This document shows positions 30,320-63,095 of a stretch of DNA of 64,000 bases, one piece after another (positions within the stretch are counted from its first letter, which is position 1; every line of letters begins with the position of its first letter). The translations under genes and the position numbers were made by a program. The notes beneath the pieces were generated by a model. That model did no database searches, had not been told where the DNA came from, and saw nothing but the letters and a program-made list of their open reading frames with translations. Origin of the DNA: Capitulum mitella (taxonomy: Eukaryota > Arthropoda > Thecostraca > Pollicipedomorpha > Pollicipedidae). The stretch spans positions 21,951,398 to 22,015,397 of the forward strand of contig CP099841.1 in the NCBI GenBank assembly GCA_030062745.1, in the 5' to 3' direction.

Positions 30320-31641
30320 TTAACCCGCGCAGTGGAAGGGGGTTTCGCGCTAACGCGTACTGGAAGAGGGGGGCACAAAAGTGTCCCCCCGATCTCGGGA
30401 GTGGAAAAAGCCAGAGATATGAAATTTATATGGACAGATTGGGGCTATAACGATTTACATTACATGCGATTTTCATGACCCTAGGTTAATATCTTCAAGG
30501 GTCAAATGGGGTGGAAAAGGTCAACTTTTGACACTTTCTTGGCCCATACACAACATTTCGTACGACTTTTCGAACAAAACGGGAAAAGGGTGTTTGTTTG
30601 ACTGTTAAAATACAAAATAAGACAACGTCCATTTATTTGACACGTCTTGACTGAGAATTTTGGGTCGAGGTCATGTCAGGTCATTGATCTATGGCGTCAT
30701 TTTTTCATCTTTTGCAGATAAGATTTGGAGCAACACGGGATAGCTTGAGCGTAAATAAGGGCGCTACACGTATCTTTTGGCGTATTTTCAGTGAAGGTAG
30801 CCAACATCGATACATTTGATCACTTCCAGTGTTTATATTTATATGCGCATGCATGTGTATATATGCATAAACATGTGAGTACCAATGTGCCGGACGTGTT
30901 TTTATTAGGGTCTTTGAATGCATATTTCATACAAATCGACACGTTGCAAAGCAAATCTGTACTAGGTCACAAAATAGTCATCCTTGACCTTTGATGACCT
31001 TGACCTGAAATGACCTTGGTGTATATAAGCGTATCCATGTGCACACACCTCTTCGAATGCATATCTCATACAAATTGAGATGTCGCAAAACAAATCTGGG
31101 CCAGGTCACAAGATATTTGACCTTGGCCTTTAACTACCCTGGCCTTCCCTGACCCTGGTATACATGAACGTATCAGTGTGTGCACACGTGTTTTTATTAG
31201 GGTCTTTTAGTGCATATCACCTACAAACCCGACATGTTGCAAAGCAAATCTGGATTAGGTCACAAGCTGTTTGGCCTTGACCTTTGATGACCTTGACCCT
31301 TACTGACCCTTGGCTTTGGTTTTGGTACATTCCATCACTTATGCCCGAATGGCGTCCCGTGATTGTGTTTAAAAGGTAATCTTAGGTAGCACGCTGGTTC
31401 TTTCACAAAGTTGCCATCTGTCAGCGACATCGGTCGTTTTCGTTACATTTGTCTGACTTCACTTGCTTCAAACTTCAAAAATTTTCGGCCGATTTCCAAT
31501 TTTTCTGCGTCAATCGACGAGTCGTTCAATTGTCATAAATGTCACAAAGCAGCAGCAACCAGCTCAGATCCGTTCTCGAGATATTCAAGAAAAACAGGTG
31601 GGGGGGGGCACAAAAAAAACCCTTTCCATTGCGAGTGTTAA
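30320..31641 (+). mobile_element. TTAA-bounded non-autonomous element, family 2, full length
   Basis: TTAA at 30320-30323 is followed by CCCGCGCAGTGGAAGGGG. The far end reads CCCTTTCCATTGCGAGTG before TTAA at 31638-31641, giving imperfect inverted ends of about 18 bp. The body of about 1.3 kb carries many TGACCT/AGGTCA words and three or so internal sub-repeats ('gcatatttcatacaa...gacatgttgcaaagcaaatctg', near 30915, 31055 and 31210). No protein is encoded. Copies lie at 1-473 (minus) and 52986-54355. Ends resemble piggyBac-like elements by TTAA target and CCC terminus; family membership is inferred. Confidence 0.7.
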
Positions 31642-32699
31642 ATCATTGCGGCGAAGGTCATAATGTCCACGGGCCGAATGGAAAGCGTTTTGGGGTAAAA
31701 TTGAGGACTTGCCATTTTAAGCACCAAAAAAAGATGCCTTTTTCTGAAGTAACCAGTGGCGTGCAGTCTACATGGACGTTCATTCTGTCGCGTCCGGTGC
31801 TCCTGGACATAGAGGAGACAGTCACTCCCGGTTCGGCTGCTGCTCCGTCGCTGTCACAGCAACCTCCCGTTCCAAACAGCGGCGCACAGATACGTCCGCG
31901 GACATGTTCGGTCGGCAGCGCCCGCCAGCGCCGGCCAGCGGCTGCGTCTGTGGCCTAATCAGGAGAAACATATCTGGTGGTGTCATGTGATTCCCTGCAA
32001 CTGAGGTGCACATTGATCCCACGGGAGAGCACAGGCGGACCGCCCGGTTTTCCGAACGCCGAGCGGGCGGGATGATGAAATGGCGCTGGGCATCTCACCT
32101 TCAGGAGTGGGCTCAGTTTTCTTTTAAGTTGGAGCTTGTCTGGCGTACTCATTTTTATCGAGCACGTGGGAAGCATGCAGTGCACGCGGGACCAATGGAG
32201 AGAACATCCCGATGATTTTCAGCACTCAAGATAATGCATGCGTGGGTGATCCAATCCATTTGGCAATGCTCCTCGCGGGAAATGAAGTGCTGTTGGAGGT
32301 AATACTCGTTACCCACCTTTTGAAGTGGGCAGAAAAGATAGCAGTAAATATGTTGCTTAGCAGAACTACAACTTCTCAGACCCAGGTACCTGGTTGCGTT
32401 ATCCATGATCGATGCTTAAAGTTCAAGAACACGCTGAATTTTCTAAGCTTAAATGTTTCTGCGCTTACTAAGAATGCCTTTTTTGCACGAAAGTTTGAAA
32501 CAATTAAGCACATATATTAGGATAATATACCATAGGGATTTTAGCCTCATTCCCGTATCAAGGGGTTCGGAACTTCTCTCAACGCCCCCGCCCCCCACCC
32601 CGCCGGATTGGTTTTCGCCAAGTCCGGGATTTTTTAATCGGCTTTGCAAAACTTTATTAAGTTTCCTGTAGATTTCTTGACATAACATTCTGAATTTCT
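31642..32699. other. unassigned sequence
   Basis: It has a short CG-rich part at 31790-31960 and a C-rich tract near 32583-32604. No gene is recognised. Confidence 0.4.
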
Positions 32700-33660
32700 G
32701 CCATTCCATTGTGGTTAGGGGCGAGGCCAGGTTAAGTTATTGGGACTCAACTCAAATCTTTTTTGGCACCGTTAAACGTACAAGAAAAATGACTGTCAAA
32801 AATGGTGTTTTGAAAATAAGACATAAAACTCTATATGAGTCCATAGGTAAATAAATGGGTGAACACCTAAAAACATGTTCGTTGGTTTGAGCACGTTTCA
32901 CAGCGTTACATAAAGGTCAAAAGTTAAAGTTAACATTTGGTTTTATGTACAGTCTTTTGGCACAAATATTCAAAATAAAAACTCCAAAATGTGTATGACT
33001 TAGAGTGCTATATTCCATTTGTGCTTCAAGTCTCAAGTCGATATGGAGTCAGGTCACGGAACTAAAATGTCCGCTCGCTTCAAATTCAAATGGTCTGACC
33101 AGACAGTCAAATCAAGTGAGGTGATTTTATGTCATTTGAGATATAGGTTTGTAAGTTGATCGGAATAAAATGCGGCCCTTAACAGTTTCCACTTTTCGTG
33201 TTCGTGGCACCGCGCTATGCAAACATTATACAAACAACGTAGTGCGACTTGTAGTTCGAAGTATAAAATGACTAGTACAAGACGAAAAAAGGCATTTGAT
33301 GTGTATGTTAAACCAGTTAAAGAGAAATTGTGGCCGATTTTTTTTCTTCTGCGCGCCCCCATAAATTTGTTCCAAAATTCTAAAGTTTTAGCCAAAGGGC
33401 AAAGTCAGTTAGCTCTCACGTTATGCCAACTGCATGCAAATCGGTCCATAAACATCGGAGTTATGACAAGTACCAAATATCCTCTTTCTGACCTTTTTGC
33501 CTCTGGTTCCCTCCCTTGCAATGGTTTAAAAAAAAATCCATAAAAATGCTGTTAACGTCACGGAGAATCGATTGTCATTTTATGTGGTAAAATCGAACGG
33601 GTAGTCGTCAGGACCTCAGTGGAGGAAAAATAGGTCCTCCTATCGGGAATGCGTTCAAGC
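32700..33660 (+). mobile_element. TTAA element, family 1, diverged copy
   Basis: Blocks such as 'gtgttttgaaaataagacataaaactctatatgagtcc' and 'aatcgattgtcattttatg' match 40180-40215 and 41035-41060 of the intact family-1 element in the same order. Clear termini are not visible, so the copy is old or truncated. Confidence 0.55.
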
Positions 33661-35174
33661 GTTATGCGCACGGGAGCAGGGTTGCGCAGGAAAGTAGCAA
33701 GCAGCTTGTGCAGAGAAATATGCAGCCAGCGTTCGCTTTGCAAACCAATTAATAATGACATGAAAATTGCTATGACGAAAGCGTCATACTGTAATTCGTC
33801 TTTCACTCAGTCCTCAGCCTGTCGCAGGGAACAACTGGCTGCCCCGCCCCCTTCCCCTCGAGAGACGCCCTGTCCGGAAACAATTCGTACGGATGTGATG
33901 ACAAGGTGTTTCGGAGAACGCGGCTGAATAGATTCCATGTCTTCAAATTGGGTTCTGTTGAAACTCCCCGGATCTCATCTCCGCGCGCCATGCAATTTAA
34001 AGAAAAGAAGTTGCAATCAAATAAACGATTCTGCTTTGAAGCAAAGGCATAGTGCTGTTTAGGAGTCTGATCTGATCAGTTTCATATTCCATTCCTTTTA
34101 CTCATTTCGGTAAAGCAAGCATTTTTCTTCAAGTAAAAGCTCTTATTTCAAATTCGGATATTTTCTTTTGAAACACACAATGCCTGATACTGGATATGAG
34201 TGCAGATAGTCCGGTGTCACCCACTACCTCAAAGCATTTAGTTATTTAGCCGTCTCGTCATGAGAACAAACCGTGAGTTTACACAGAGCTAGTTCTTTCC
34301 GGAGGCGCTTGGAAGCGTCCTTGTCTACGGGGGGATTTACATTTACTGCATAAATCGGGCGGTGCCCAGCTGGCAAAGTCCAATCAGCCACTGCGCATCA
34401 GAGACCTGGCAGCCAATGGCGCCAGCCTTGCGAACAGTCGCTCGTGTGTGGCAGGTATGGCAACACACTTGCAGTTTACTCCGGGATCCTTTCAGATCCG
34501 TCACAGATATTCCAAAACCGTCCTGGAGGGTGGAAAACACCATCCCACCGCCCGCCGGCGTACGAAACAAGCGTAAAATGTGCGTCATTTCACCACACCA
34601 CCAATCTCCGCATCAAAATCGGATGGTTCCTGGATCTCATGGCCATCACATCATGCCACCGTTCGAAACCAAGACGAACTCTTCTTTGTGTGCTTAAGTA
34701 GACGGAGGACCGCTGTCTGTTTCAGCGGAAAAATAAAAGTGTTTACAGTTGAGGCACGGGGCAGACATGTACCAAGTTTGAACTGAAGGAGCCGTAATCA
34801 TCAGCTCATTGCAGATTGATGCACTTGATACTTTATCATCATGATACTCTTCGAGAACCCCATCAGCTGTGAATAGCTCTTTGTTTTTTTTTTTAAACTG
34901 AAGGACATGCAAGCTCACTGCGTGATTTAGTTCAGGCTCGGTCACAACTCCCAAAATCAAATACACGAATGTTGTGGCGGGGTGAGATGTACGGCCTTCA
35001 GTCCACGTGTCCTTGAAGTGTGGAACAGATAGAATATTACAACTGGATGATGAATAAGAAAATGTCTATGTTGTTTGTTTCAGTGACTGTGTTGTTTGTT
35101 TCCGAGTTGGGCAGTCACCGTGGACCGACTTACCCGCTGGCGGACAGCGGGTGAGTCATTCCCATCTTTCCCCC
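33661..35174. other. unassigned sequence
   Basis: No gene, RNA or repeat recognised. Frames at 34362-34701 have no domain. Confidence 0.35.
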
Positions 35175-35602
35175 GTACAGCGGATGGACCGTGCCAGAGT
35201 AGGTCCCATCTGGGCAGCGCTGGGCCGCTCCAGAGCCGGTCCTATCTGCTCAGTAGGTGGGCTTCTCCAAAGTCGGCCCTATCTCCCCTGTTCAGTGGGT
35301 CGCCCGTTCCAGAGTCGGGTCCTCTTTGGACAGCGGGTGGACCGCTGCAGAGTCGGTCCTATTTGGACAGCGGATGGATCGCTGCAGAGTTGGTCGTATC
35401 TTGAGAGAGGGTGACCGCTCCAGAGTCGGTCCTATCTCCTCCGGTACAGCGGGCGGACCGCTGCAGATTCGGTCCTATCTGGACAGTGGGTGGACCGCTC
35501 CAGAGCCGGTCCTATCTCCTCCTGTACAGCGGGTGGATCGCTCCAGAATCAGTCCTATCTGGACAGTGGGTGGACCGCTCCAGAGTCGGCCCTATTTCCA
35601 AC
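35175..35602. repeat. 37/43-bp minisatellite with alternating unit lengths
   Basis: About eleven copies of a CCAGAGTCGGTCCTAT block occur. A basic unit is 37 bp (GACAGCGGGTGGACCGCT...), and alternate units carry an extra 6 bp (CTCCTC type), giving a higher-order period near 80 bp in the later part. It yields false SGWTAPE/QSRSYL repeat peptides. Confidence 0.85.
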
Positions 35603-35844
35603 GGACGACCCGCGAAGGCCCGAGCGCCATATTTTATGTAAATCGATGGCGGCTCGGCGCGGCGGCCGCGGCCGATTTCGGCGCCCGGCTCTGCCCGCAT
35701 TGTGTATCAAATTCGACGGTCGGCCGAACGCTGAAATGCGGGGACCATCGATCTGTGGCTGATGCACACAGCCGCCGCCGGAGGCCGCAGCGCTGCCCAG
35801 CCCGCGAGGCCCAGCTGGACAGTTCAACCGTCAGAGCTGGCGCG
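35603..35844. other. CpG-rich spacer
   Basis: GC-rich sequence joining two minisatellites. No gene is recognised. Confidence 0.4.
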
Positions 35845-36080
35845 GCCGCCTCTGGCGACGTCACCAGAGGTGGACGCGGCCACCTCTGACGACGTCACCA
35901 GAACTGGACGCGGCCGCCTCTGACGGCGTCACCAGAGGTGGACGCGGCCGCCTCTGGCGACGTCACCAGAGGTGGACGCGGCCGCCTCTGACGGCGTCAC
36001 CAGAGCTGGACGCGGCCGCCTCTGACGGCGTCACCAGAGGTGGACGCGGCCGCCTCCGATGGCGTCATCAGAGTCAGCTG
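35845..36080. repeat. 34-bp GC-rich minisatellite
   Basis: About seven units of 34 bp, each with GCGGCCGC (or GCGGCCAC) and GACGTCACCAGAG. Within a unit CAGAGG and CCTCTG flank the GC core, so each unit can fold on itself. Confidence 0.85.
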
Positions 36081-39000
36081 TGTCCGCCGCTGATTAAGAT
36101 GGCCAGAGTCCAGTATGATGGGTCCTTGCCGACAGCATTCTGGTCAGGCACGTACATGCGGCGGACAAAGATCTTATTCGAATTTGATCAGACTGTGACT
36201 CGTGTTATCATCAAATACGTCATGCAGCTCAGTCCTCTTCCAGCGTCACCAGGATTGGACACGCCTGACCATGACGTAAAGGTCACCTCTTCTTGATGTG
36301 GTTTCTTAAAGAACGTCCATCAAGAAACCTGGTTGCATCTTTATTTTTTTACGCTGTTGGGTAGTGTCCAACGTCAAATGCTTCCAACAGAAATTATTTC
36401 CCTCGCATTGATTATTGAATCACCATCTAATGTACATATACTCAATATATTAATGAGGTACACTATTAAGGACGTGGAATACATGTACCTACGACAGATA
36501 ATAAGAGAGACCACCCATGGATCCGTCTATAACCATCGACAACATGTTCAGAAGTTGCAGTGGCAGACCACTTTTTTCCACACTTCATGACCTACTTCAG
36601 TTTGTAATGTCTCTGACGTCACTGTTTGACCTCCGACTGCAGAAGCTTGAGCCAGGGATCTGACGTCGTGTTCCTTCTCCTTTTCACATTTTTCATGACC
36701 GCCTTGTTCTATACAGCCTCGATTTTGCGATTTTCCATGACTGGCACACAAAAGGAGTGCATACATACATACATAAGGATCATACATACGGAGTGCACTA
36801 CCAAACAGTCGATGGTAATGATTAAGTCCCAACCTGTGACCCACACCCACTTGAAAACAATGAACACTCTTTTCGTCATCTATATTAGCGGCTTAACTTT
36901 TCACACGTGACACCGTCTCGTGCATGCTGGATATCCTGTGGCGTTCATAAAACCATTGCTCGTTTTTTGTATTATGAATTCGAACGTCGCCTCGCTGCAA
37001 AATAACAAAAAAAAACGGACCCTGAAGCTGCCCGGAATGTCATCGCTCAAAAAAAATCGTCAGCAAATGAATGGTGTAACTATATTTCTGAACGACAGAT
37101 ACCACAGCCAAACTCGTGGAATATGCTGCACTGAGTTGTGCGGAGGTCGCCTTTAGAACGGTTTTCCCACTAAAGACGTGTTTTGCAATTCTTGTTTGAA
37201 TAAAACTTCGTGTTATGAGCAAGCCTAGAGAGCCGGCTTTCGAGCTGTGTTCTGTTTCTTATTTGCCTCATGTTAATAACACGGACTTTAATTTACTTCT
37301 TTCTTTCAATAAAGAAGTTTCTGTTTTCATCCTTTAGGCTGTTTTACTCGAACAGCGTCTCGACAGCACCATTTTGCCCACGTTTCCCGAACTGTTTAAG
37401 CCAAATGTGTACGACTTTTTTGAATCAAAGACCATCGCCAGGTTTCTAAAGCACGGAAGTGTTTTGCAGCCTGAAGGTAAAACAGCACGCTGAGAAAGTG
37501 GCTATGCCGATTTCATCTGGGTTTCCATTTTTGCACAATCGTGAGGGATTTTAATGCACCATCATAGACACTAAATCAAGTGTTATATGTCGCGTCTAAA
37601 TGGTATTAGCGACGTTGTATCGTTATGCACTCTTCCTTTCCTCTCTTCACTACACTGACATCATTATCTAAGATCATTTGAAGAGAACGGTCGTAGGAGA
37701 AATCCATCGACACATGGTCCAAGTTGTAACACCACGGGAGTAACATGCGTATTAACTGAATCATGTTTTGAATGGTAACTAACTGAAAGAGATAAATTTC
37801 GACTGGCGACTGATATGTGAAAGACATACTTTTCTTGTCAATACAGGTATCAAGTTATGTTCACGACAGCTCCTTCAAACCAACAGTCTAAGTGATTAGT
37901 AAACCCGCGCCCACTGGCAGTGAGCACAGTGCACAAGGGTTGTCGACAACCCTCCCCTCTCTAACCCGCGAAAGGGTGTTCGCACGATAAAACATAAGCA
38001 CACCCTTGGAAATCTCGTGACAAGTAGAGTTTGAAAGGGGTGTCATTTTTATTTTCGAATGATATGTAAGCCCTTTTCACCCAATATATGTCTTCTCATA
38101 GCAGGCTTCATGGACCCAAGAAACGGCCTGGATCTCAAGGACTGTGATGAACTAAGTCTAAGGCAAGGTATCGACGGACAGGTAAACGTCCGCAGACGCC
38201 ATTACTCATCTAATGCCTCCAATTTGTTGAGTATTTACGCGGGGAAGTGAATAAGAAACGCAACAATTTTCGGCGACACAGAAACGCGGGTGTTGGCGGC
38301 AAACGCAAGATGACGTTATTGGGTACTGGTGCTAGCGTTCCTGTATTCTGGTGAAATAAGCCTTACCATTGAACATTTCTTCATGCTAATAGTTAACGTC
38401 ATGGTATTTTATATGTGATGCATAACACAATTCAGTAGCTATCGTTCTATACAGCTGGCGGGGTTTTATACGCGCAAGGCCATTTGTTTTCAAAATATGC
38501 ATTGATATCATTAAAAAATCTCATTCATCGCTGATTTTGAAGGCGGTGCATTTTGGCTCGCTATAGTTATTGGTGACTTCACCTCAGGCCAGTGGTCTAA
38601 AGTTAGTGATATTTTGCTTTATAACGATCATTGGAAGGTTCCATCCTCTCACACTGAAAAACGTCGTAAAAATGCCGCCAGTTTCCAAAAAAACGATGGC
38701 GTGCTTTGAAAACGGGCTTATCCTTTGGTCAGTGACTCCGAATTTTAAAAAAAAATCTAAGATGTCAGATATGTTGGACCTTTCTAGACCTCTGATACCA
38801 CAAAATTTTGTTTTAATGTCTTCTTTCTCGAAAAAAATTATATGGAGCTAAACGTTCTTGGACATGGACAGTGATAAAAAATGATTAGGAAAAAAACACG
38901 CAGAGTTCTGTGGAGCCGTCTTTATTTGTTCTCTCACAATATTTGAAAAAAAATAGAAAGAGCTGTCAACTACAGCCTCTGGTCACAGCTCGGCGCTGGT

Positions 39001-39283
39001 TAAATGCAGAGAAATTAGGTGAAGGCAATTTTACATCGATTACGACTGTGGCACCAGACTAAACTTCAAAACGGCCATGCTTAGCGGAGTCATACCCCTA
39101 ATGTTCAGTTGTTTCAAAAGCATCTGTCATTCAACAGCTCCAGTGTTTACCCTCGCCGGGCGAGGAATCACTTTGCAACTCTCAATGAGGTTTTTCTTTA
39201 GCTACCAACGACAGGCCCTCTTCATTAGCTTGAAGTTTCCCATACGGACCTAACATCTTTCCTGCATCTTTTCCTTAAATAGA
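36081..39283. other. long AT-leaning unassigned stretch
   Basis: It has a short (CATA)n run near 36759-36775. No exon, RNA gene or repeat family is recognised. Confidence 0.4.
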
Positions 39284-39334
39284 TAGATATATATATATAT
39301 ATATATATATGTGTTTATGTATACATATATATAT

Positions 39335-39364
<30 letters not shown>
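39284..39364. repeat. (TA)n-rich microsatellite
   Basis: Alternating TA with short TG and TACA interruptions. Confidence 0.9.
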
Positions 39365-39365
<1 letters not shown>

Positions 39366-39933
39366 ACTACAAGACCATGCCAGGATACTGAATTATGACG
39401 GTATTACTGAGGGTCAGCAAACTGTTTTAAGTTCCGATACAGTACTTCTTGGGCATATGTCTGAAAACACTGGAGTTTTAAAGGCCAGTCACCTGTTCAA
39501 GGTCAAATGGGGCCATCAACCTAACATGACATTTAAGTACCTTTGACCAGAGTGCAATGGTAACTGTTGTTGTTGATCTAAGTAATGCCAATTATTTTCA
39601 ACCTCCTTGATAACTCCAGTCAACTTTAGTCTGTAACATCAACTCTAATCTTTGACAGACATCATTTTCGGCCTGGCAGGATAACCTATGCCGAAAATGA
39701 TGTATGACCTTTCATTGAGCTGACCTTGATCTCGAGAGCAGAACACTGACCGGCTACAACGACTAACCAATTCTGACATCGGGTCGCTACAAAAAAAAAT
39801 AATCATTATAATAATATGTGGTTTCTTGGATGAAATTCTATAAAATCACTACCATGACAGGGGAGACGAAAAACGGCAAGTACCCTCCTCTCCTATGACC
39901 CGAAATGTCGCGCGATGACCTTAAGGGATCCAA
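39365..39933. repeat. AGGTCA-containing sequence before the family-1 element
   Basis: It contains TCAAGGTCA at 39497-39505 and other half-sites, and looks like the body of a related repeat. The ends are not defined. A short pair 'catcattttcggc' / 'gccgaaaatgatg' near 39660-39702 forms a hairpin. Confidence 0.45.
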
Positions 39934-41160
39934 TTAACCCTATTCCCGGCAGGTTGAGATGGCTGAATCCACCCCCTCGGGTTTTTTGCTTGCCAATTCC
40001 AGGCTTCTTAACGCAGCTTTACGAAACTTGGTGACTTTTCCTAGCTATTCTTATCTACGCACTATGACAGACTTTCACAATTCTACTTTGCTCAGGAGCG
40101 GAGCCAAGCAACGTTTTTTGGACGCACCTCAGGCCATTTTTGGCCATGTTGAGGGGAAAAGAAAAATGTTTGCCAAAAACAGTGTTTTTAAGATAGAACC
40201 TAAAACTTTATATGGATGTATAGCTAAATAGTTGGGCAATATGCACACAAAATTATGTTTATCTGAGGTCACTTTACAAGGTAAGGTCAAGGTCAAAAGT
40301 CAAAATTTGCTTTTTTGCGATAATTTCGGCGCCATTTTTTCAAATGCCAAATTCGGAAAATATATGACGTAGAAGGGTGCCCTCTGCTTGTGTACCAAGT
40401 TTCAGCTTGATATCAGGTCGGGTCACGGAGCTATGACCTAAAATGTCACTGCGTGTACCCTACATCGCAATTGCCATAAAATTATTTTTTTGGAATAGAG
40501 TGAATTCAAATGATTGAAAAGCGTTTACAGATAATATAAAATGCACACGAGATCATTCCAAGTGACCCCGAGGTCACTGGAAGTCATTTAAGGTCAAAGG
40601 TCACAAGTTGATCTCAAGAACGTGTGACCATGACAGTTCCCCTTTTTCATGTCCCTGGCACCGCCTATGCTAACATTATACAAACATTGTAATGCGATCT
40701 GTACTTCTTTAGCATAGCATGACTAACAGAAGCCAAAAAAGTGTTTTTACCTTTTTTGTTCATTCAGTTATTAGGAAACTAATCCTCCTATTTTTAAAAC
40801 CCTGTGAACGCCCATGAATTTTCTAAAAAAATTCAGATTTGTGTACCCATGGTAAAAGCCTCATCCATAATCTCTCGATTCATGCCAGTTTCATTGAAAT
40901 TGGTCAATAAACAACGGAGTTATAAGAAATCCAAAAGTACCCCCTATTTTGGCATTTTTGCCCCCCCCCCCTGTATTTACAAATTTCAAAATTTTGAAAA
41001 TATCTTTTTATAAAAGTGTAGTTCACTTCACGGCAAATCGATTGCCGTTTGCTGCGATGAAATCGGACGAGTAGTTCTCGAGATCTCGGGGGGGGGGGCC
41101 GAATCCGCCCCCCCTGCCGGGAATCGACCGTACCGTCTAGCCCTCCGGGAATAGGGTTAA
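39934..41160 (+). mobile_element. TTAA-bounded non-autonomous element, family 1, intact ends
   Basis: The left end is TTAACCCTATTCCCGG (39934-39949), and the right end (41145-41160) is its exact complement, so a perfect 16-bp inverted repeat includes a TTAA duplication. The element is 1219 bp between the TTAAs. The right end has an inner second copy of the CCCGGCAGG block. The body carries TCAAGGTCA (40287-40295) and a DR1, AGGTCAAAGGTCA, at 40591-40603. No transposase is encoded. The termini are the kind piggyBac transposases use (TTAA target, CCC start), so mobilisation in trans is likely but inferred. Confidence 0.8.
40591..40603 (+). promoter_or_regulatory. DR1 nuclear-receptor motif inside a TTAA element
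   Basis: AGGTCA-A-AGGTCA is a perfect direct repeat with one base spacer, the type bound by RXR/USP- and HNF4-class receptors. The family-1 copy at 51307-52650 keeps a changed version near 51955. Binding in vivo is unknown. Confidence 0.5.
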
Positions 41161-42615
41161 ATACTTCTAAATGAGAAATAAACGCACTACGCGCTAGTGG
41201 TTGTTTCGCTGAATCTGTCTTTATTAGCGCAGTGATGGGAGGTAGGGTGGCAACGGTTCCCTGGTTCCGCGACGTTGGTGAAAATCACGGCGTCTGGTGA
41301 GGGCCTTTCTTGTTTATTGTTTACAGATCAACATCGACATTTCCTCGCTTCTAGATTGTCCAAAAGCAATATCAGGCTATTTGGCAATGCTACGCCACGT
41401 TCATGGCAGAGGAAAGGTCATTTCGACGCAAAGACGGGGAAGCCCGGCAGTAATGGCTCCTTTTGCAACCGCCTTTATTGTCAGTGCCGGTCAGAAAAAA
41501 CGGAGTCAGCATAAGGAGGCCACTGTTATTCCGTGGATCTGATTACTGCCGAAAAAAAAGTACGCCAAATACTCAAAAACCAAATCATTTTTACAGCACT
41601 CTTTGCCTACATGTAAATTCTATGTTTGGTTTTCGGGTAAAAAAATTTTCATATGGCATTCACCGTCATCACTGGGTAACCTCAGGGTTCCCGTCTTCTG
41701 ACTTACCTGGAATCTTTTCCTATCGGCATCAGTGGCGAATGCATGTAGCGCAATATTCCACGAATACTGTCTAATAGTGCACAGCCTGTCTTGAAACATC
41801 TTTCTGAACCATTCAGGAATCAGTTATCCCGTGTCCACCTTGACTGATAATAATCTGTTTGGCAATATAAAGTTGGAGCGGAACCTTATTCATGCTCCTG
41901 GTTGTCCGACACATAACAAAATGAGCCATAAAATAAGAATCTGCAACAATGAAAATCGGAGAAGAAGGAATTTACAAAACATGGTGTTGAAGAGAACGTA
42001 CTTCTATGATGAATCAATCAGGATACGGTATTTGTTGGTAAAGAAGTAGAACAATATCACGCGTTCTAAGCGTTCCGTGCAACAGCACGGGGACGTCGGA
42101 GGGGCGGTGTGCAACAATTTTCATTCTACAGCGATGGTTTACAATTCGTCTATGCCACTGTACAGCATGCCATGCTTTTGATTTATAACAGATTGTTTAC
42201 AAATTCAGGCGCTGGATGTCTTTAATGAAAAATATATGATTTTCATGTTTCTGAGCATGTTAGCTTAAAGACTCGGAAAAAGGAACATCAGACAGGTAGT
42301 TGACTGATTCACGACTCAGAAGCTAAATCAGGGATTAAAAACTGATCACCCATTTAAACACCAGCAGATTGCAACAAAAGACACCAGTTTTTTATACTGA
42401 CAGTAGCGGCTATATCGTGGTTTCAGCAGGATCAGATATCACGTCGAACATCAGCAATAATCCCTCGGATAACGACACGGCCGAAAGAAGCCATCTGACA
42501 TCTGCGTAATGGCGACAGGACGGAATGATTATTGTTGTGGAATCGCCGAGTCAATAAGGTCAAGAGAGATTGTTCTATTAGGCATTAGGCCAAGAGTATT
42601 CGGCCTCATTTCCTA
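41161..42615. other. unassigned sequence
   Basis: No gene, RNA or repeat recognised. Confidence 0.35.
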
Positions 42616-42649
42616 CGCTGACACTCTCATGTGCCGCATGCGACCAACC

Positions 42650-42690
<41 letters not shown>

Positions 42691-42990: not shown

Positions 42991-44479
42991 GAGTGCCAGG
43001 AGCAGCCTCTCCATTTTGGGCCAGAGAGGGAGCTGTCTAAAAGCGCCGCCATTCTATTAGTCAACAGTAAGAGTTTTCGACAAAGAATCGTGAGTTCGTG
43101 ATCGATTTTGAAGGTAAATCTTTATCGTTGAAAATCTGTACCAGTCCCGAAAAATGTCATGCGAAAAGCCATTGTTTCTCAAGCAGAGGCTATTGGGGAG
43201 CTGCCCTACTTTCGAGTAATGGAGGGGGAGCGTTCTCCCACTATCTCGAGGACCAGTCGACGAATTGGTGTGATTCAAACGGAGATCGACGACCATTAGC
43301 CACATGGTCCTGGATGGCCCCATTCGTTTACTTCAATGCCAATGATGGTTGGTGTCGCAAGTCAGGTCAACGGCCCGGATTGGACGCTGACTGCGAACTG
43401 CCTTTAATGGACATTAACTCGCAAGACGTTTTCAATAGTTCCTGGGATCAAATCATCATGGCGACGAGGGGAAAACTGCTGTTGCTACATTTTCCTATGG
43501 CCAGATAAGACTTGCTCGCCTTTGGTCTTTAATCCAATGGCGTGTAAGCCATGCTGCAAAAATAGGATATGGATGGGAGGAAAATTTGTATATTTATTAA
43601 ACTTGTAGCGCATACATGATTCATGATTTGTTGTCATAATGACCTGGCCTTTGATTATGGCCAAAATTCAGATATACTGTCGATTAAAAAAATGAAAATT
43701 TGATGCAAACTGCTTCTGTCGTTCTGACGTTATGTCGATGAGCCATGACGGAATGTGGTGGGGTTAAAAAAATATGACGTTTCTAAATGGCATGTAGAAA
43801 ATCGAATGGAGAAAAAGTCTTCAGAAAGCGCTAGTGAATGTCCTTTCGGAGCTTTTAGCCTGGTCCCACCGGGACCTTGCTGCAACAAATCGCGCTTTCA
43901 GATGACATTAGCCGGCGGCGGTCTTCGTGCAGTGTCGGCTAGGAGCAGGCACCGGGGCGACATCTGTGCGGCGGAGCGTGAACTACTCCCAGTCGATGGC
44001 GGCTCCGTTGACAGGCAGTCGAAACCCGTTGTTACTTCAGAACGCGCGGCTTCACAGCATAAGTCTTCGGTGCCATTGCAGGGCATGTTTCGGCTCAGTC
44101 GTCTCGAACGGAAAGCTCTCAAGCATCTTAGGATCAGTGATATTTTCTCCATCTGTGGTTTTATTTTTTCGCACGACGGTCCATAGGTTTTGAACCTGGT
44201 GTTCGCATGTTCAAGAATAATTTTTCGTAACGAAAAGATTCGTTACAAACCATGGGAACATTCACATTTCCATCAGGTTAACTTGCCAGTAACTGCGGTA
44301 ATGAAATGATCAAACTGGGTGCCTCCTGGACCATTTCCGACGATCTACGCCTCAACAGTTAGTCTCCGAATCTTCCTCATCAGTCACAGTGGTCCCCAGT
44401 TTTTTTTTCCGGTCGACGATTTCACTCCCAGCCATCTCCGGTAGTCTCTGACCCTGACCCGGAAGATCGTATCGCAGGC
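42991..44479. other. unassigned sequence
   Basis: Overlapping frames are open at 43098-43508 on the plus strand, but I recognise no domain and see no convincing splice context. It may be a decayed mobile sequence. Confidence 0.35.
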
Positions 44480-44578
44480 AGCCGAGCTGCCAAAGTCGCG
44501 CGCGATGGAATGCCATCCGGCGGGGTCTAACGCGATGGAATCTCAAATGGCAAGGTCTAACGCGATGAAATATTAGAT
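44480..44578. repeat. short tandem repeat of about 30 bp
   Basis: Three units of the type CGCGATGGAAT...GGCAAGGTCTAA. Confidence 0.7.
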
Positions 44579-44639
44579 GACGTAATTTCGCACTGCAGAA
44601 CCTCAAGACGGCACATCTTCGGGCTCTGATGCATTTTGA

Positions 44640-45060
44640 GTGCGAGGGTATCGGCAGAGCTAAAAGGGAACCGGCCGGCACCACCGACCGGGTGGCGGTG
44701 ACGAACGGGCGCGGCTGGAGCGGCGGCCGCCGGCGGTGACCCCCGCCCTCTAATGGATCCGGCCGGCGTCCGCGGCCGCGGCTCGGAGAGCGAGCCGACA
44801 AAAACGCCCGGTCCGGCGGCGCCGCCGGTGAGAGCCGACGCGGCTGGCGCGCCGCCCGTCCGCGCCCCGTCGGAGCGGGCGCAGCCGGCGAGCAGACAGT
44901 CCTCCCGCCCCGCCGATGAGCGCCGTCAGACGCCGCATCACGGCGGCAGTCGCGCTCACCGACGTCGGCGGACGGACACCACGCCTCGGCGGAGATGTTC
45001 CACGGTGCCGCGCCCTGTGATGTCTTCCGGCGGCATCAGTGGGGCGTCGCAAACGTCAGA
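44640..45060. other. CpG-rich island
   Basis: Dense CGGCCGGC, GCGCCGCC and similar. Both strands are open with Arg/Pro/Ala-rich translations. Possible promoter or first exon, unproven. Confidence 0.4.
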
Positions 45061-45579
45061 CTGCCAACGGTTGGGCGGGACATTCGGGATCACATCACCG
45101 CCAGGCGGTGTCTGGACAGCACTACGTCCCCGGATGTCGTCCAGAACACAAATGGTTTGCAGCGGCCCGAGGCACAGGTAGCCATGTCCCCGTCGACTAA
45201 GCTGTATTGCGACATCCTCACCGATGTGCCGGTGTCGTGTTCTTTAAATCGTGTCCCACGCGACGTGCTCAACTGATGTACCACCAGGTACCTCGCTGCA
45301 CGTTCGCGTCTGATATTTACCCGCGAATTATGCTTCGCCCATTTTCGGGCGTGCGACAAAACAACCCACAAATAAATCAGCCGCACAGACGTTTTCAAAG
45401 ACGAACTCTCTTTTACGTTGCATGACGCGCGGTACTTGCGATACACGGAAGGCAGCATTAAACATTAATGCATCACACCCTTTTCGCAATTAGCTAAAAG
45501 CAGCCGAATTTGAGGCAAAGTGCATTTACCATGTGTAGCGTCGGAGCAAAACAGTCCGTCAAAAGGCATCAAATGGCAC
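45061..45579. other. unassigned sequence
   Basis: A minus-strand frame of 122 residues (45090-45458) has no recognised domain. Confidence 0.35.
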
Positions 45580-45725
45580 AATCTTAATTGCGTGTGTAAG
45601 TGATGTTTTTCCATTTCACTCCACCATGCTGATAATTCAACCTGATAACGTTGCCATGCTCGTAACCTTAATTGCACGTATGTAACGTTTTTCCACTTAA
45701 CTTTACCATGCTGATAACTTAAGGC
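45580..45725. repeat. tandem duplication, about 80 bp
   Basis: CTTAATTGC.CGT.TGTAA.G...TTTTTCCA.TT.AC..(T/C)ACCATGCTGATAA occurs twice. Confidence 0.65.
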
Positions 45726-45815
45726 GTAGCCCACTACGGAACTAGCAGCCTGGTGTCTATGTTTTGCCAAAAGTTTCGGTGGTCAAGGTCGTGTATGTCC
45801 TCACTTCTCTCCATG

Positions 45816-45847
<32 letters not shown>
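45816..45847. repeat. (TA)n microsatellite
   Basis: Pure alternating TA run. Confidence 0.9.
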
Positions 45848-45849
<2 letters not shown>

Positions 45850-46051
45850 TGTTGTAGATTTACATTCATCATTGACCAAGGTTGCAAGACCCTTGAAAAA
45901 TAAAATAGCATGAAGTGAAAATAAAATCTAGATAAAAAGTTAACCTGTTCGATATGAGAAAATGCTGAGCGTAAGCAAAGTTATGTTTATAGCATCTAAA
46001 GGCACCATTCCACTCCTGCCTGACTGATGTAACACGTTAAAAGTTAAAAGC

Positions 46052-46108
46052 CTCGCAAACAAAATTCTTGGTAAGCTACCTTCAGACAAAATTCGTGGTA
46101 AGCTACCC
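46052..46108. repeat. 27-bp tandem duplication
   Basis: ACAAAATTC.TGGTAAGCTACC occurs twice in succession. Confidence 0.7.
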
Positions 46109-48481
46109 GGCGGTGGTTCCCAAAAGTGCAATCGCCCTCAAACCGTGCTCAATATGCGGACTGCTCTGACGAGCACCGGCCCAGCGCTGGACGTGAGATT
46201 GCCGGCCAGGATACGAGTTGGCCGACGTGCCGGAAGACACGACAGAGCCGGCCACGAATTTCTGGCACCGAGCCTGAGCGGGGATTACTGCTGCTCGCAG
46301 GACCGTCTGGAAAATGTGCCCAAATGGACTGTCTGAGCCGACCGTGAACTGAAGCACTTAGGGAACGCCATCCGGCTTCCGAGCCAATAGCAGATAGGCT
46401 GGGCTTATGAAATGAGGGTCCGCCATGACGTTCGTTGTTCAATTGCTGGCGGAAAAACTACGGAGCGCATGCTGCGGACTACCTGAGAAAGCCTGCGTTA
46501 TTCTGCCGATCGTGTAGCGATATTTGAGCAGTCACACTCGGTTAGGACTCGCTGTGAAGAAAGGGCAGTACCGTAAGAAACTAAATTAAAATTTACTTAC
46601 TTCAGAAGGTGGTTTGGGCGTAACACCTGTTTAACCAGCGTGGAGTTTCGGTTGGTTAAATTTGCCTAAAATATCGCAAATGAGTGGCACCCAGCTACGC
46701 ACAAGTATTTAGATACACATCTACGTACAACACGAGCAAACCAAAGAGGAAGGGAGAACGATGATGTAAAAGTATAGCGCCAAAAGCTGGTCTACGGCTG
46801 GTTGAATGCGTAACACAGCAATTTATTCCAGCACCTCATGAGAGCTTTTTCTGTTTCACTGGCAGTCAGAAGGGTGATTGAGATTATATGCATCATGGGT
46901 GTAAAATCTCGTAGAGGGTAGGCAAGACGTCAGTCCTACCATTCTTGAAGCATTTTTTCATACGCACTTTATAGTGTGACATAAAAAAGTTACCTAAAAA
47001 TGCCTCTGGCGACAGTCTTTTAAGTACATCATCTCCACGTCCAAAGGCTTAGTTTGCTGTTGTCCCAGCCTCTCCATACGCTGATGACGTTGTCGACTTC
47101 TGAAGGAAAGTTTGGGGACGCAAAGAAAGAATTCGTCGTTTCTTAAACGTTACTAGTTTTAGTGAACATTGCAAACATTGATAGGCGCAACTAGCAAATG
47201 ATTATCAATGGCAGGCAAGGAAGTATTGTTCACATACTTGGCGGAGTTCATGCGTTTGAATGGCGTCGATTATTCCAGTTGGAAAAGCTAGCAGTCTGAC
47301 TACTGATATGAAAAAGATTATCCAGTTGGTCATAAATCAGAGGCCAGATTTTGATGGTTCATGTAACACTTAAACGTGTTTTCCCTGGCAGTAAATGGCA
47401 TCATAACCATCAATCATGACAATCGAGTGGTGATTTGCTGTGCTGGTGACGCAGGCCAGGTGTTTCACGACGTCGCGGACCCCGACGTCGGTGTGACATC
47501 CTGCATAGGACCTGCCTGCGACCGGGCAATCCCCGGTCTGCGTAATGATCAGGGCTGGTATTCCATAAGTAAAAAAACTGCTGAGAGAAAATAATACTGG
47601 ATCAAGCACGCAAAAACGCCTATTGAAAATAATCTCATCGAAATACGCTCTGCAAGCAAAGTGCGCGCATCCAAAAATATTTCGCATTTGAAGGAAACCG
47701 TGCAAAAAAAGATGAAGCATTCGTTTTTTGTGAATTATCCTTGCTGGAGTCGGAATGGTCCGTCATGCTGTCATCAGTAAAGTCAGTCTGTAATTTATTT
47801 TTTCTGCGTTGACCTTGATTACTCACATGGAACCTCAAGTGCGGACATTTGTACCAAGGTCTTAGTACGTAGAAATGACTAGGCTCTGCCGCATGGCTAA
47901 AAGTCAAATATGATATCCAACACAAGAAAGGAAAAACACGTCGGACATCTATTGTGGCGTCTCTTATCACTGGCGTGACGACGAAATTTGATAAATGATT
48001 ACTATCAAAGCCCATTGACCTGTCTCCGTACTGCTAAAAGTGACCTATGACATTCTTAAAATGTAACACAGCCAGGGATGGGAAAGCTTCGTTTTTTTCC
48101 AATATCCAAATGCTGGAGAGATTTGCGGCGAGCTTAGGATATGCAAATCGATGAAGCAACAAATGTGTTTGAGTAGGGTTGGTCAGAGCATTTTAGACGC
48201 TTTAGAAATTTTAGGAATCGCACAGTGATGAATCCCGCTGAATTTGCCAAAGAGACCAATCCATAAAACGTAATTAAATGTTTGACATCACGGGTTTGAG
48301 GACGTCCGTATGATAGTAAAGCTTTATGTAGTTACGAAAACTCCCCCGGGCGATCTCCATGCACACATAAAACAGTGATGACACCGTGTCCAAGGTGGAC
48401 TTCATAACCCATAGACTGAGTCACCCGTCTGCATTCACGCTTTCTTTGCAAGCGACATAAACCGCAATGATTCACACGTGA
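46109..48481. other. unassigned sequence
   Basis: No gene, RNA or repeat family recognised. Confidence 0.35.
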
Positions 48482-49130
48482 GGCCACAAGACCTGCACTG
48501 ACCGCCTCGTCCTATCGACCGCCGGCAAAGCCCTGGAGTTCATCGCCGCCGCCGCTTCTCAGCTTGACCCCTCTCGAGTCTCGGGCCGCCCTGCTGCGGC
48601 GCCTTTCACCGCCCCAGATCACCGATGGACGTTCTTGCCGCCATCACATCACCTCGCGCGTTACATCCGACTTCGGCCGACCTCGTCCGTCGCCCGGGGC
48701 CCCGTGACCCGAGACAGCGCCGCCGACCGCGCCGAGATTGCCGCCTTCTCCACGACCGCGCCGGAAACGAGCGCCTTCTCAGCGGACACACCGCAACGCT
48801 GGCGGGCCGCCTGCTGCGGACGGTGTCAAGGTCCGGCTGCTCCTCACGGTCACGGTCACGGTCACGACCGTTGCGGACGGTGCCGATCGAGGTCCGGCTG
48901 CTCCTTACGGTGACGGTCAGGTCTGTTGCGGACGGTACCGGTCGGGGTGCGCCTGCTCCTCACGGTCGCGGTCGGCCGGCGGCGGCCCGGCAGCGGCGGC
49001 GGCTCTCGCTACACGAGCCGACACGCCGTGTACAGGTTCGTGGTGACCGAGAACAGGAGCAGGGCCGGCGCCGCCGCCTGGCCCACTCCCCCCGTCTGCA
49101 TGGCGGCCGGGTGCTCTCCTGGAACCAGCG
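48482..49130. other. CpG-rich island with long open frames
   Basis: The plus strand is open from 48482 through 48913 in one frame, beginning GHKTCTDRLVLSTAGKALEF. This lacks any domain I know. GC-rich sequence is often open by chance. A first exon of an unknown gene is a possibility. Confidence 0.35.
48803..48975. repeat. GC-rich tandem repeat, 54-61 bp units
   Basis: GGTCCGGCTGCTCCTCACGG...TTGCGGACGGT recurs three times, with an inner (ACGGTC)n run in the first unit. Confidence 0.7.
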
Positions 49131-50999
49131 GTTCACCCAGTCAGCCGGGAGCGACGTCAACTGTGGACAAACGGACCACCGCGCTGGCCAATTTATCCAC
49201 TTATCACACAGTCGTAAGAGCGCGCAGTGATACATTCAACAGGTCAGCTGAGGATGACACCACCATCACAACAGGGCAGCCCTGTATAATCCCTTCTGTA
49301 GGTCATTAAACCAGTGGAACTACGGATCCGCTGGACATATTTAATTTATCGCGTTTGCAAAATGCAGGCAAGGTCACAGTGTTTGTTTAAGCTCCTTTCA
49401 GACGGTAAACAGTCTTAAAAGAATGAATAGGTAAACCCTGGCGGGGCATAGCAGCTTGTTTCTAAAAGAAATATGGCTATCAAGATTTAGTGGCAAATTT
49501 TCACCACTTTTAGTACTTTTCTTCCTAGTTCGTCACGGAGACAGTTCGCGGGACAAGACGTCTTATCTCTATAAATAAACACCAGGTTGATTTTGGTGCT
49601 CTGTTGGCTAATAAGCTGTACGCATGTCAAACACTAACAACAGGAGACAGCATCCCTAGCCCAGCCGAACCTGACTTCCTAGCGCAGTGCGGCATTTCTC
49701 GCCGCGGCGGCCCTCCAACTTTCACCGCACGAAGATCATCTCGACACAGCTTTCCAATCGGCCTTGTTTTGCCGGCCGGGTCATTCCGGCAACAAGTGCC
49801 ACTCATCATCCGGCGAGCGCGTCGACTTTTGGCCGCCGCCCCACTGCGGAAACCAACAAACAATTTCGCGCGAAAATCCGCCGTCGTCCGTCGTCGGCAG
49901 AAGGGACGGAAGCGGCGAAGCGGCTCGCCAGGCCGCGGCCAGTTTCACACGGATACTGAGCTTCCCGTTGAGCTGAGTTAGCTCAGCTAAGTCCTAATGA
50001 GCCCCAGCGGCCCCCGTCCTATGTTGCGTGAGATTTGCGACCATGGGCGCATTCAAGAACAGTGGAGACCAAAGAAGGTATTTTGGTCGTAGTTTCACCC
50101 TGTGTGTGCAGTTCGTTTTTGACCGTCATTTTGGTCCGGACGATGATGTGCAGGGCAAAGCTTAACACAATTATCACAGCTGGCAAGTAAACACACACAG
50201 AAAATAGTCGCATTTAGCACGGCTGAGTCTAAGTGGCAGCCGTAAACTCGCGACACTATCCAGGGGTCAGTAGCGACCGGTCCCGAGCGGCCAACTGACG
50301 GCACGCCTGTTAATAAACCATGACCGCTGCTCTGTTATCGCTTTGTGCTAGCATCGATGACGCGAAGGCGTGATTTTCAAATTTAATCTTCATGGATACT
50401 GACAACCAAAACAGAATACTGCCATGTACGGGATCGATGCACGGCAAGAGGCCTTGGACGTGACCGACTGGCCGAAAACCTGAGGACGCCGCGCGGCTGC
50501 GGAGCTGCTTAACAGGGCTGACCTGGCCACCGGCCGGCTGCCACTCCAATTACCAGCGTCTGGAGGACTGCGACGACGCCATTTCGGCTGCAGTTGCTCC
50601 TGCACGACTTAAATGGTCCATTGCAGCGCCGGCACTTAAACTTAAGCTAGTTGCGCTGCCGCATTAGCAGAAAGTTCAGAGTGGTTGCGGAAAAATTCAG
50701 CCGCAAAAATGCTGGTGGCAGCTGTGTGCTTTCGTTACCATGCAGTCTACCCATGAAAATACATTATCCCTGGCCATGATCAGAAATGTGACTTAGTTTG
50801 CAAATAATTTTTAACGAATCCCAGTTGTTTAAAACAACAAAAAAAATACTCAGTGCTCTGTTGCAGACAATACTGCTTAAACAAGTACAAGTAAACATTA
50901 ACCGGCCGCCGTGGTGCTCTTTCCCAGAGACGCCGCCATGGGGGGCATTTTGATCCCTCCTAAAATCCAAACTAATGGTGACTGAAGACTGAGCGTGGT
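49131..50999. other. unassigned sequence with a moderate CpG patch
   Basis: The patch is at about 49680-49960. No gene is recognised. Confidence 0.35.
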
Positions 51000-51302
51000 G
51001 CTCTTCGATAGCTTCATTCTTGATCTTTCTAAAACCACTCTACTTGGTCTAATTTGCTGGTTACATTTTTGGTCAATTTATGTCAAATGAAGGCACATTT
51101 TGACTGATGACCACTTTTTGTCAGTTTGGTGGCTTTGAGTGCCATAGAAATCCGAATGTGTTTCAAATATTTTCTTCATATCTATCTGATACGATGTAAC
51201 ATGAAAGACACCCGAAAGTCTGTGGCCGATGATGGCCTTGTCAGGCCACAGTTCTCGCTGATTGTGTATTTTTCGATGCGCGACAAAGCGGTAAACGCCG
51301 AA
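51000..51302 (+). repeat. dispersed repeat related to 61960-62300
   Basis: 'CACTTTTTGTCAGTTTGG' and the following 'CATAGAAATCCGAATG...CTTCATATCTATCTGATACGATG' align with 62199-62290. Confidence 0.55.
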
Positions 51303-52654
51303 TTAAACCCCCTTCCCGGCAAGGGCTAAATCTGCGCCCCCTCGCGTTTCTTGCTTTTCATTTCAAGGGTTTCTGACGCAGTTTTGCGAAACTCAGTTAC
51401 TTTTCCTAGCTGTCCTTTCTTCGTACTGCAACAAAATTTCGTAGTTCTTCTGCGCTTAAGTGGGGAGTCAGGCAACGCTTTTTGGAGGCACCTCACGCGA
51501 TTTTTGGCCCTTCTGAGGGTAAAAGAAAAATGGCGGCCAAATATAGCGTTTTTAACATAGAACCTAAAACTTGATGTAGGTGTATAGGTAAATAGTGGGG
51601 CAACCATGCAAATATAATTTTGTTAATTTGAGACCTTTTCAGGAGATCAGGTCATGGTTGGAAGTCAAAATTTGGTTTGACAATAATAATTTTGGCGTTT
51701 TTTTCAAATGCCAACCCGGAATAAATATATGACGTAGAAGGGCGCCCTCCATTAGTGTAACAAGTTTCAGGTTGATAGCAGGTCGGGTCACAGAGCTATG
51801 GTTTAAAGTGTCAGTGCGCGTACCCTATATCACGGTAACCGTGAAATGAAATTTTAGAAATAGAGTGAATTGAAATGATTGAAAATGTTTTCAAACAAAA
51901 TGAAATGCACTCAACATCATTCCATGTGACTCTAAGGTCACTGGAGGTCATTTAAGATCAAAGGTCATAAACTGAGCTAATGAACATGTGACCATGAAAG
52001 TTCCCCCTTTTCATGTCCTTGGCATCGGCTATATTGAAATTACATAAACAGAGCAGTACGATTTGTACTTCTTCAGGACAACATGACTGAAAAAGTCAAA
52101 AAAGCGTTTTTTTCTCTTTTTTGTCCATTTAGTTCTTAAAGGTAACTCTATTTTTAACTATTTTTAATTAGTATAATTATATATATGTAATAATTATATA
52201 TATAATACTTTATTATATAGTAATATATATAACAATTTCAATTATTATCATCAAAAACATTTATAAAATTTATTTATAACTGTTTTTGAAACTTTGTAAA
52301 CGTCTTTGAATTTTCTCAAAATTTAGCATTTTTGGACTAATGGCAAAAGCCCCATTCATAATCTTTCGATTCATGCCAATTTTATCAAAATCGGTAAATA
52401 AACAACCGAGATATAAGAAGCCAAAAATATCCTCGTTTTGACTTTTTTGCTCCCTGTATCCACCCCTTTCAGTATTTCGGAAACTTCTTGTTATGAAAAT
52501 GTAGTTCACATCATGACAAATCGATTGCCGTTTCTTGCGATAAAATCAGATGTGTTGTTATCGAGATCTCAGACGGGAGGGGGGGGGGGCGAATCCGCCT
52601 CTTCCTCCTGCCAGGAATCGGCCATACCGTCTAGCTCTCCGGGAATAGGGTTAA
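51303..52654 (+). mobile_element. TTAA-bounded non-autonomous element, family 1, second copy
   Basis: The left end is TTAA (51303-51306) then ACCCCCTTCCCGG, and the right end is CCGGGAATAGGG-TTAA (52651-52654), identical to the right end of the first copy. The body follows that at 39938-41156 block by block, with an AT-rich expansion at about 52155-52265. It is 1344 bp long and encodes no transposase. Confidence 0.78.
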
Positions 52655-52675
52655 GCTGCAATGTGTCAAGAAGTA

Positions 52676-52840
52676 CAGTACGATTTAAAAATAATCTGCT
52701 TGAGACTTTCTATTTTCATTTTATTATTATTTTTTGCGAAGGTGCAGTACGTTTCAGAAACGTAAGTTAAATCGTTCAAAAGATGTTCAAGAAAAACTAC
52801 CTGGGGGTCAAATTGGGCCTCATGACAGGTTGGGTTAATC
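52676..52840 (+). repeat. dispersed repeat related to 62950-63090
   Basis: 'GCAGTACGTTTCAGAAACGTAAGTTAAATCGTTC' here matches 'GCTGTAAGTCTCACAAACGTAAGTCAGATCATTC' downstream, and both continue into a '...TACAAGAAA/TTCAAGAAA..GGGGGTCAA' block. Confidence 0.55.
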
Positions 52841-52985
52841 CATAAAGTGCCGTGGGGCCAATTTCATCCCGCCAGTGGTTTTCCAATGACAACTCAAGAA
52901 CGAATAAAGACAGGTCAATGAAATTTGGGTAACCTTCGTATAACTGAATGACACATCGTTTGGTGTCCACCTTTTTGATCTTGCT

Positions 52986-53652
52986 TTAACACGCGCAATG
53001 GAGGGTGGATTCGCGCTAACACGCACCAGAAGGGGGGCACAAAAGTGACCTCCCTCCGATCTCGGAAACGGAAAGACCTAGACATGATGTTTTATAGGTA
53101 GGGTAGGGCCATAAACATTTACATAATGCGCTATCTTCATGGCCTTGGATTAATATCTTCAAGGTCAAATGAGGTCGAACAGGTCAATTTTGGACACTTT
53201 CTCGGCCCGTACAGGATATTCCGTACGACTTTTTGAACGAAACGGAAAAAAGTGCGCTCCTTGAGGCTTAAAGGGTGGAATACGACAATTTCCACTCATT
53301 TAGCATCTTGACTAAGGATTTCGGGTCAGGGCATACCAGGTCATCGGGCTAAGGCGTCATTTTTTTCATTTTTTGCAGATCAGATTTCAAGCAACACGAG
53401 ATATTGGTGTAGCTTGTAAATAAAGGCGCTAAGCGCATCTTTTAGCGCATTTTCAGAGAAGATAGCCAACACCAATACCTTTGATCACTTATAGTATTTA
53501 CTAACCTCTGTATGGTCAAAAGAAGTGAAACAAGGTCATTGACCTCGGATAAAGTTTTTGTCCCCATGTTGGTTTTATGTTAACAGTTTCCGATAGGGTG
53601 ATTTCGTTAAAATGAACTCAGCTATGCGATTTGATTGCTATAAAACGTGAAA

Positions 53653-53698
<46 letters not shown>

Positions 53699-54355
53699 TA
53701 TCAATGTGCGTACGCCTGTTTTTTTATTTGGGTCTTTGAATGCATGTTTCATACAAAGCAACATGTTGCAATGCAAATCTGCACTAGGTCACAAAATAGT
53801 AAGTCTTGACCTTTGACGACCTTCACCTTCACTGACCCTGGTATATGCAAGCGTTTCGATGTACGCACACGTTTTTTATTAGGGTCTCTGAATGCATATT
53901 TCATACAAACCGGCATGTTGCAAAGCAAATCTGGATTAGGCCACAAAATGGTTGACGTTGACCTTTGATCACCTTTGCCCTTACTGAACCTGGCTTTGGT
54001 CTTGGTACATCCATCACTTGTGCCCGAATGATGTCGGCTGATTATGTTCAAACGGTAATCTTACGTAGGATGCTAGTGCTTTCGCCAAGTTCCTGTTCAT
54101 CAGCGGCAACCGCCATTTTCGTTTCCTTGATTTGATTTGATCTGATTTCCTTTTTGGTTTAATTTTGGTTTTATTTTTGTTGGTTTGACTTTTTTATCAG
54201 TTTCCAAATATTGGCGTCCGATTTTCAATTTCTTTGCGTTAATCGACAAGTTATTCAATTGACATAAATGTCACAACGTAGCTCCAACCGTTCTCAAGAC
54301 TTTCAAGAAAAACAGGTGGTAACACAAAAGTGCGCCCTTCCAGTGCGCGTGTTGA
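52986..54355 (+). mobile_element. TTAA-bounded non-autonomous element, family 2, third copy
   Basis: TTAA at 52986-52989 then CACGCGCAATGGAGGG; the right end CCCTTCCAGTGCGCGTG is followed by TTGA (54352-54355), one base off TTAA. Internal order matches 30320-31641, including TCAAGGTCA at 53159-53167 and the 'catgttgcaa.gcaaatctg' sub-repeats. A (TA)n run of about 42 bp lies at 53655-53696. Confidence 0.7.
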
Positions 54356-54359
54356 AGGT

Positions 54360-62949: not shown

Positions 62950-63095
62950 TCAAGGTTCGATTAAAAAACAGCTGCAGAATTGCTGACCATTTTTGGAAAG
63001 GTGCTGTAAGTCTCACAAACGTAAGTCAGATCATTCCAAAGATATACAAGAAATATCAGTTGGAGGGTCAAGCTAATCCCAGATAACGAGGTGCA
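62950..63095 (+). repeat. dispersed repeat related to 52676-52840
   Basis: Shares 'CACAAACGTAAGTCAGATCATTC' type sequence and the following AAGATATACAAGAAA block. Confidence 0.5.

Follow-up and report, generated by a model that had tools for sequence, protein, structure and literature searches.

Drosophila EcR-USP activates reporters with direct repeats of the nuclear-receptor half-site separated by one, four or five bases (DR1, DR4, DR5), as well as other repeats, according to the available part of PMC5494300. The same source gives DR4 as the most efficient repeat for the LdEcR-USP pair, and shows that EcR-USP reporters in yeast are active with a DR4 built from AGGTCA. Response elements of this kind may also lie in dispersed repeats: about half of the consensus human DR4 motifs are located in Alu, as stated in the accessible text of PMC1785376. 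Here we describe a 64 kb stretch of the Capitulum mitella genome (GenBank assembly GCA_030062745.1, contig CP099841.1, positions 21,951,398 to 22,015,397, forward strand; hereafter the window). It holds two families of TTAA-bounded elements, A and B, with phased AGGTCA half-site arrays and without a recognised protein in the reading frames that were scanned.

The half-site pairs of these elements have the same build as the DR4 ecdysone response elements in PMC5494300 and PMC8435907, namely two direct AGGTCA with four bases between. The reporter site AGGTCACAGGAGGTCA (PMC5494300) and the pair AGGTCACTGGAGGTCA of element A2 differ in a single base of the spacer. Likewise, the elements resemble the Alu DR2 (and DR4) of primates in that consensus hormone response elements of direct-repeat type sit in a non-autonomous element with dispersed copies. 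Alu, however, is a retroposon, and CpG decay was the main source of its DR2 (PMC1785376), whereas A and B have the anatomy of DNA transposons and carry several DR4 pairs. The published DR4 ecdysone sites were tested for function (PMC5494300, PMC8435907) and receptor recruitment was shown by chromatin immunoprecipitation for several Alu copies (PMC1785376), whereas the DR4 pairs and arrays of the window are candidate sites. In their ends the elements match members of the piggyBac superfamily, truncated and non-autonomous ones included, which share TTAA ends and short inverted repeats starting CCC or CAC in the accessible part of PMC10813416; unlike that superfamily, no transposase was recognised in the A and B copies examined.

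Families were delimited by self-BLAST of the window (E up to 1e-4) and element ends were placed by eye from the sequence; half-site and lag counts used limits one to four bases wider. Elements of families A and B are 1.1-1.4 kb long. A1 (39934..41160, + strand) is bounded by TTAA on both sides and carries TTAACCCTATTCCCGG at both ends, perfectly inverted over 16 bp, and ATTCCCGGCAGG of its 5' end is found again inside its 3' end. A2 (51303..52654, +) is 76.8-77.1% identical to A1 by self-BLAST and alignment and also has TTAA at both ends. A3 (about 32541..33685, +), an old copy decayed at both ends and delimited by eye from the alignment, is 60.7% identical to A1. Family B differs from A in its terminal inverted repeat, TTAACMCKCGCARTGGAA, which is imperfect. 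B1 (30320..31641, +) has TTAA at both ends, an inner copy of the terminal repeat near its 5' end, and half-site-rich internal units of about 139-154 bp. B2 (52986..54355, +) is 69.3% identical to B1 overall and shows TTAA on the left and TTGA on the right, in place of the expected TTAA. B3 (1..473, -), 80.3% identical to B1, belongs to a third copy of family B that runs off the window, so that its 5' part, with a single end, lies within it. Members of a third TTAA family, C1 (50898..51306, +; no AGGTCA) and C2 (61960..62389, +; two AGGTCA), are 62.6% identical. The left TTAA of A2 is at the same time the right TTAA of C1, the arrangement that insertion into a TTAA should produce.

An earlier sequence-only reading of this DNA placed the elements at 30320 to 54355, and our delimitation bears this out, with B1 starting at 30320, B2 ending at 54355 and TTAA-type inverted ends; B3 is absent from that reading. 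The TTAA-CCC terminus that it gave to the families holds in family B for the 5' ends of B1 and B3, which begin TTAACCC, but not for the left end of B2 and the right end of B1, which read TTAACAC, nor for the TTGA of B2. Its view of the elements as one clan stands as far as the shared TTAA target is concerned; beyond that, A and B gave no match to each other in the window self-BLAST (E up to 1e-4).

We counted AGGTCA on both strands and compared the counts with dinucleotide shuffles, 200 per element and 100 for the window. The window holds 101 half-sites, against 28.1 in the shuffles (standard deviation 5.7, maximum 41). In family A we found 7 half-sites in A1, 4 in A2 and 3 in A3, against shuffle means of 0.45, 0.47 and 0.48; in family B, 13 in B1, 9 in B2 and 2 in B3 (474 bp), against 0.67, 0.49 and 0.20. 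Among hexamers AGGTCA ranks first of 840 in B1, third of 780 in A1, third of 860 in B2, sixth of 845 in A2 and 16th of 781 in A3. The bodies of A and B are thus full of AGGTCA, as had been claimed, at a density well above shuffled controls. As a feature of elements, this load holds for A and B, but the densest stretch lies outside both. Inside A, B and C there are 41 half-sites and outside them 60; the site at 54356 directly adjoins B2, and assigning it to the outside gives 61. In the outside part AGGTCA ranks 18th of 2080 hexamers, with 60 sites against 24.4 expected. Three dense outside stretches, picked by eye, hold 29 sites: 8 at 26300-27100, 15 at 54357-55500 and 6 at 59600-60300. The second of these, right of B2, is the densest half-site stretch examined (shuffle mean 0.86). 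None of the three has a self-BLAST link to A, B or another of the three at E up to 1e-4, and 54357-55500 has no BLAST match to C either.

The half-sites are phased, a property absent from the earlier reading. Ten of the 27 perfect same-orientation AGGTCA pairs with a spacer of 0-20 have a spacer of 4, an excess with a binomial tail of 2.4e-7, which becomes 5e-6 when corrected for the 21 spacings. Five of these ten DR4 pairs lie inside A or B. When partners matching at five or more of the six bases are admitted, 16 of the 101 sites have one at +10 and 17 have one at -10, whereas the remaining lags give a median of 1 and never more than 7; the partners at +10 belong to 8 of the 41 sites inside A, B and C and to 8 of the 60 outside. 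With tandem repeats masked, 900 hexamers have 30 or more sites; among these AGGTCA has the largest lag-10 fraction, 0.158 (mean 0.012, standard deviation 0.021). CCCCCC and AGAGAG have a stronger lag, at other distances.

In A1 the array at 40571..40603 (+) reads AGGTCA-4-AAGTCA-4-AGGTCA-1-AGGTCA, and in A2 the array at 51935..51967 (+) reads AGGTCA-4-AGGTCA-4-AGATCA-1-AGGTCA, the numbers giving the bases between. A1 and A2 thus both have an array with 10-bp steps, each deviating at a different site, which looks as if a single older array had decayed at one site in A1 and at another in A2. B1 carries an array of perfect half-sites at 30985..31016 (-), consisting of a DR4, a DR0 and a DR4; a DR4 in another internal unit at 31278..31293 (-), homologous to 30985-31000; and a perfect DR4 pair at 30668..30683 (+). 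Outside the named elements, DR4 pairs occur at 26385 (+) and 26738 (-) in the stretch 26385..26753, at 54675 and 55022 in the stretch right of B2 (54357..55500), and as a perfect pair at 59654..59669 (+). The ten pairs have eight kinds of spacer and fall in five segments without a BLAST link to one another: A, B, 26.3-26.8 kb, 54.6-55.1 kb and 59.6-59.7 kb.

The sequence-only reading had instead stressed TCAAGGTCA, the extended half-site of monomer receptors of the FTZ-F1/ERR type, at 39497, 40287, 53159, 55019 and 55148. All five positions are exact. Two of the sites are inside elements, 40287 in A1 and 53159 in B2, whereas the others, which it had placed inside or beside the elements, lie about 440 bp left of A1 (39497) and 0.7-0.8 kb right of B2 (55019 and 55148). 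With the copies on the other strand, at 30995, 31288, 39721, 47810 and 55178, the window contains ten, four of them inside A or B elements. Only 10 of 101 half-sites thus have the TCA extension, a weaker signal than the lag-10 pairing. We therefore dropped monomer sites as the main feature; the DR4 phasing points to a dimer rather than to isolated monomer sites.

Comparison of copies shows that retention of half-sites leans above that of other hexamers. A1 and B1 have 19 half-sites, of which A2 and B2 preserve seven, where the rate for all hexamers predicts 3.8 (tail 0.067). In the other direction, A2 and B2 have 12, of which A1 and B1 preserve seven, where 2.4 are predicted (tail 0.004). Set against hexamers of equal composition without CpG, the tails are 0.064 and 0.007. 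The same seven sites underlie both directions, and hence also the pooled value, 14 of 31 where 6.2 would be expected (nominal P 0.0013). With B3 the numbers are small, one of three for B1 and one of three for B2.

No protein was recognised in the frames scanned, in line with the claim that they encode none: Pfam gave no match at its cut-off in ten stop-free frames from A1, A2, A3 and B1, which were all three listed for A1, five of ten for B1 and one each for A2 and A3. Matches below the cut-off in those ten frames were L13e (E 0.013), ANAPC3 (0.052) and OB_DEPS-1 (0.12). The longest stop-free frame overlapping A1 has 126 amino acids, and searches for Rfam families and tRNA found none. Family A is dispersed. 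A search of the 477 Mb assembly (16 contigs) with A1, in which 40 of 10155 first-look candidates were scored, gave at least 47 matches. Besides A1 itself these are at least 40 long ones at 87-91% identity, of which at least 29 span the whole A1 query (1-1227), and 6 short ones. Five of the six short matches fall on a self-complementary stretch at query positions of about 1158-1191. Taken together with the anatomy of the ends, A and B are quite probably non-autonomous TTAA-target DNA transposons, mobilised most likely by piggyBac-type transposases encoded elsewhere. Among viral contigs, five carry the family A terminus, one an AGGTCA array (L006) and none the family B terminus. We rejected these six viral loci as relatives; they hold 2 to 6 AGGTCA against 2.2 to 4.9 expected, which we read as chance.

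The ends of the elements have further features. The self-complementary stretch at the A1 3' end (about 41091-41124) is made of a G-run and a C-run, and has five opposite-strand matches to other genomic copies. In folding comparisons with 200 shuffles, the B1 5' end was better than 199 and the A1 3' end better than 192; subterminal G-run/C-run hairpins were nevertheless rejected as a common feature, as B1 3', C1 5', C2 5' and 52770-52838 do not stand out. A motif like GTTCTCGAGATAT stands beside G-runs near the ends of A and B elements and elsewhere, at 31572, 41074, 52557, 54290 and 55444. Similar phrases occur in mollusc repeats. At 52731-52838 another TTAA element appears to have its right end, with GGGTTAA ending at 52838, and 52731-52811 has a relative at 62990-63071 (78% by self-BLAST).

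The reading that we tentatively favour, at somewhat less than even probability, is that the DR4 arrays of these non-autonomous, probably piggyBac-mobilised elements are candidate receptor sites to which a dimeric DR4-type host nuclear receptor, for example EcR with RXR/USP, would bind; such binding is plausible. A piggyBac-type transposase from elsewhere would mobilise A and B in trans, the dimeric receptor would bind the arrays, and the chromatin opening that it drives would benefit the element in tissues where the transposase acts. With each new copy, nearby host genes would then gain a candidate hormone response element as a neighbour. Several findings weigh against this account. Family C spreads with few half-sites (none in C1, two in C2). 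Half-sites turn over between copies, with three of the seven of A1 intact in A2 and four of the 12 of B1 in B2, and the old copy A3 preserves no more of them than background (one of six for A1, none of four for A2). Moreover, the spacing counts rest on one 64 kb window, and pairs in one array or in the internal units of B are not independent. As to the proposal of the earlier reading that such elements spread hormone-receptor sites, the half-site density and the leaning of retention between copies speak for it, whereas the few sites of C and the majority of sites outside the named elements do not.

A step of 10 bp is one turn of DNA, so another protein bound cooperatively on one face would also fit. 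This allows an explanation without any hormone role, in which the transposase that moves the elements, or else a chromatin protein, binds the helically phased GGTCA motifs. Repeated subterminal motifs are bound in this way in some other DNA transposons, and the concentration of the motif in elements and in dense stretches, perhaps further elements, agrees with such a function. The half-sites, however, run through the body of the element and are not only near its ends, and family C has few; since the terminal repeats of A and B differ, a single common transposase is not obvious. We regard this explanation as unlikely. Somewhat less doubtful, yet still on the unlikely side, are functionless inherited modules of low complexity, a GGTCA-rich stretch having been multiplied by internal duplication and by copying between elements. 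The half-sites shared by the internal units of B and the background retention against A3 fit this origin. Slippage would copy the spacer too, however, and the spacers of the DR4 pairs differ while the segments that carry them are not linked by BLAST; half-site retention within the pairs A1/A2 and B1/B2, leaning above other hexamers, also argues against it. Chance or base composition has a negligible probability as an explanation, and we found nothing in its favour. Its density part is refuted for the window, where the observed count exceeds every shuffle, and the rank of AGGTCA first among the hexamers compared at lag 10 opposes it as well.

The window has other features. Positions 1257-1574 and 1874-2191 form an inverted repeat of 318 bp that is 99.4% identical by self-BLAST, which suggests a young foldback element. 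Two minisatellite arrays, with periods of about 37/80 and of 34, lie at 35177-36073. An exon in the window, presumably dpr-like, has a weak match of immunoglobulin type below the cut-off (Pfam Ig_3, E 0.0003), which points to an arthropod host.

Half-site arrays in TTAA elements are not described in the literature titles that we found, in a search that left subscription journals mostly outside. It is quite unlikely that several unrelated TTAA families of one arthropod each acquired DR4 arrays because receptor binding aids movement, and so seeded very many ecdysteroid-type response elements through its genome. Should a receptor bind the arrays, the hormone network of this lineage could be rewired one copy at a time, much as has been argued for Alu and retinoid receptors, but by way of DNA transposons and a DR4 code.

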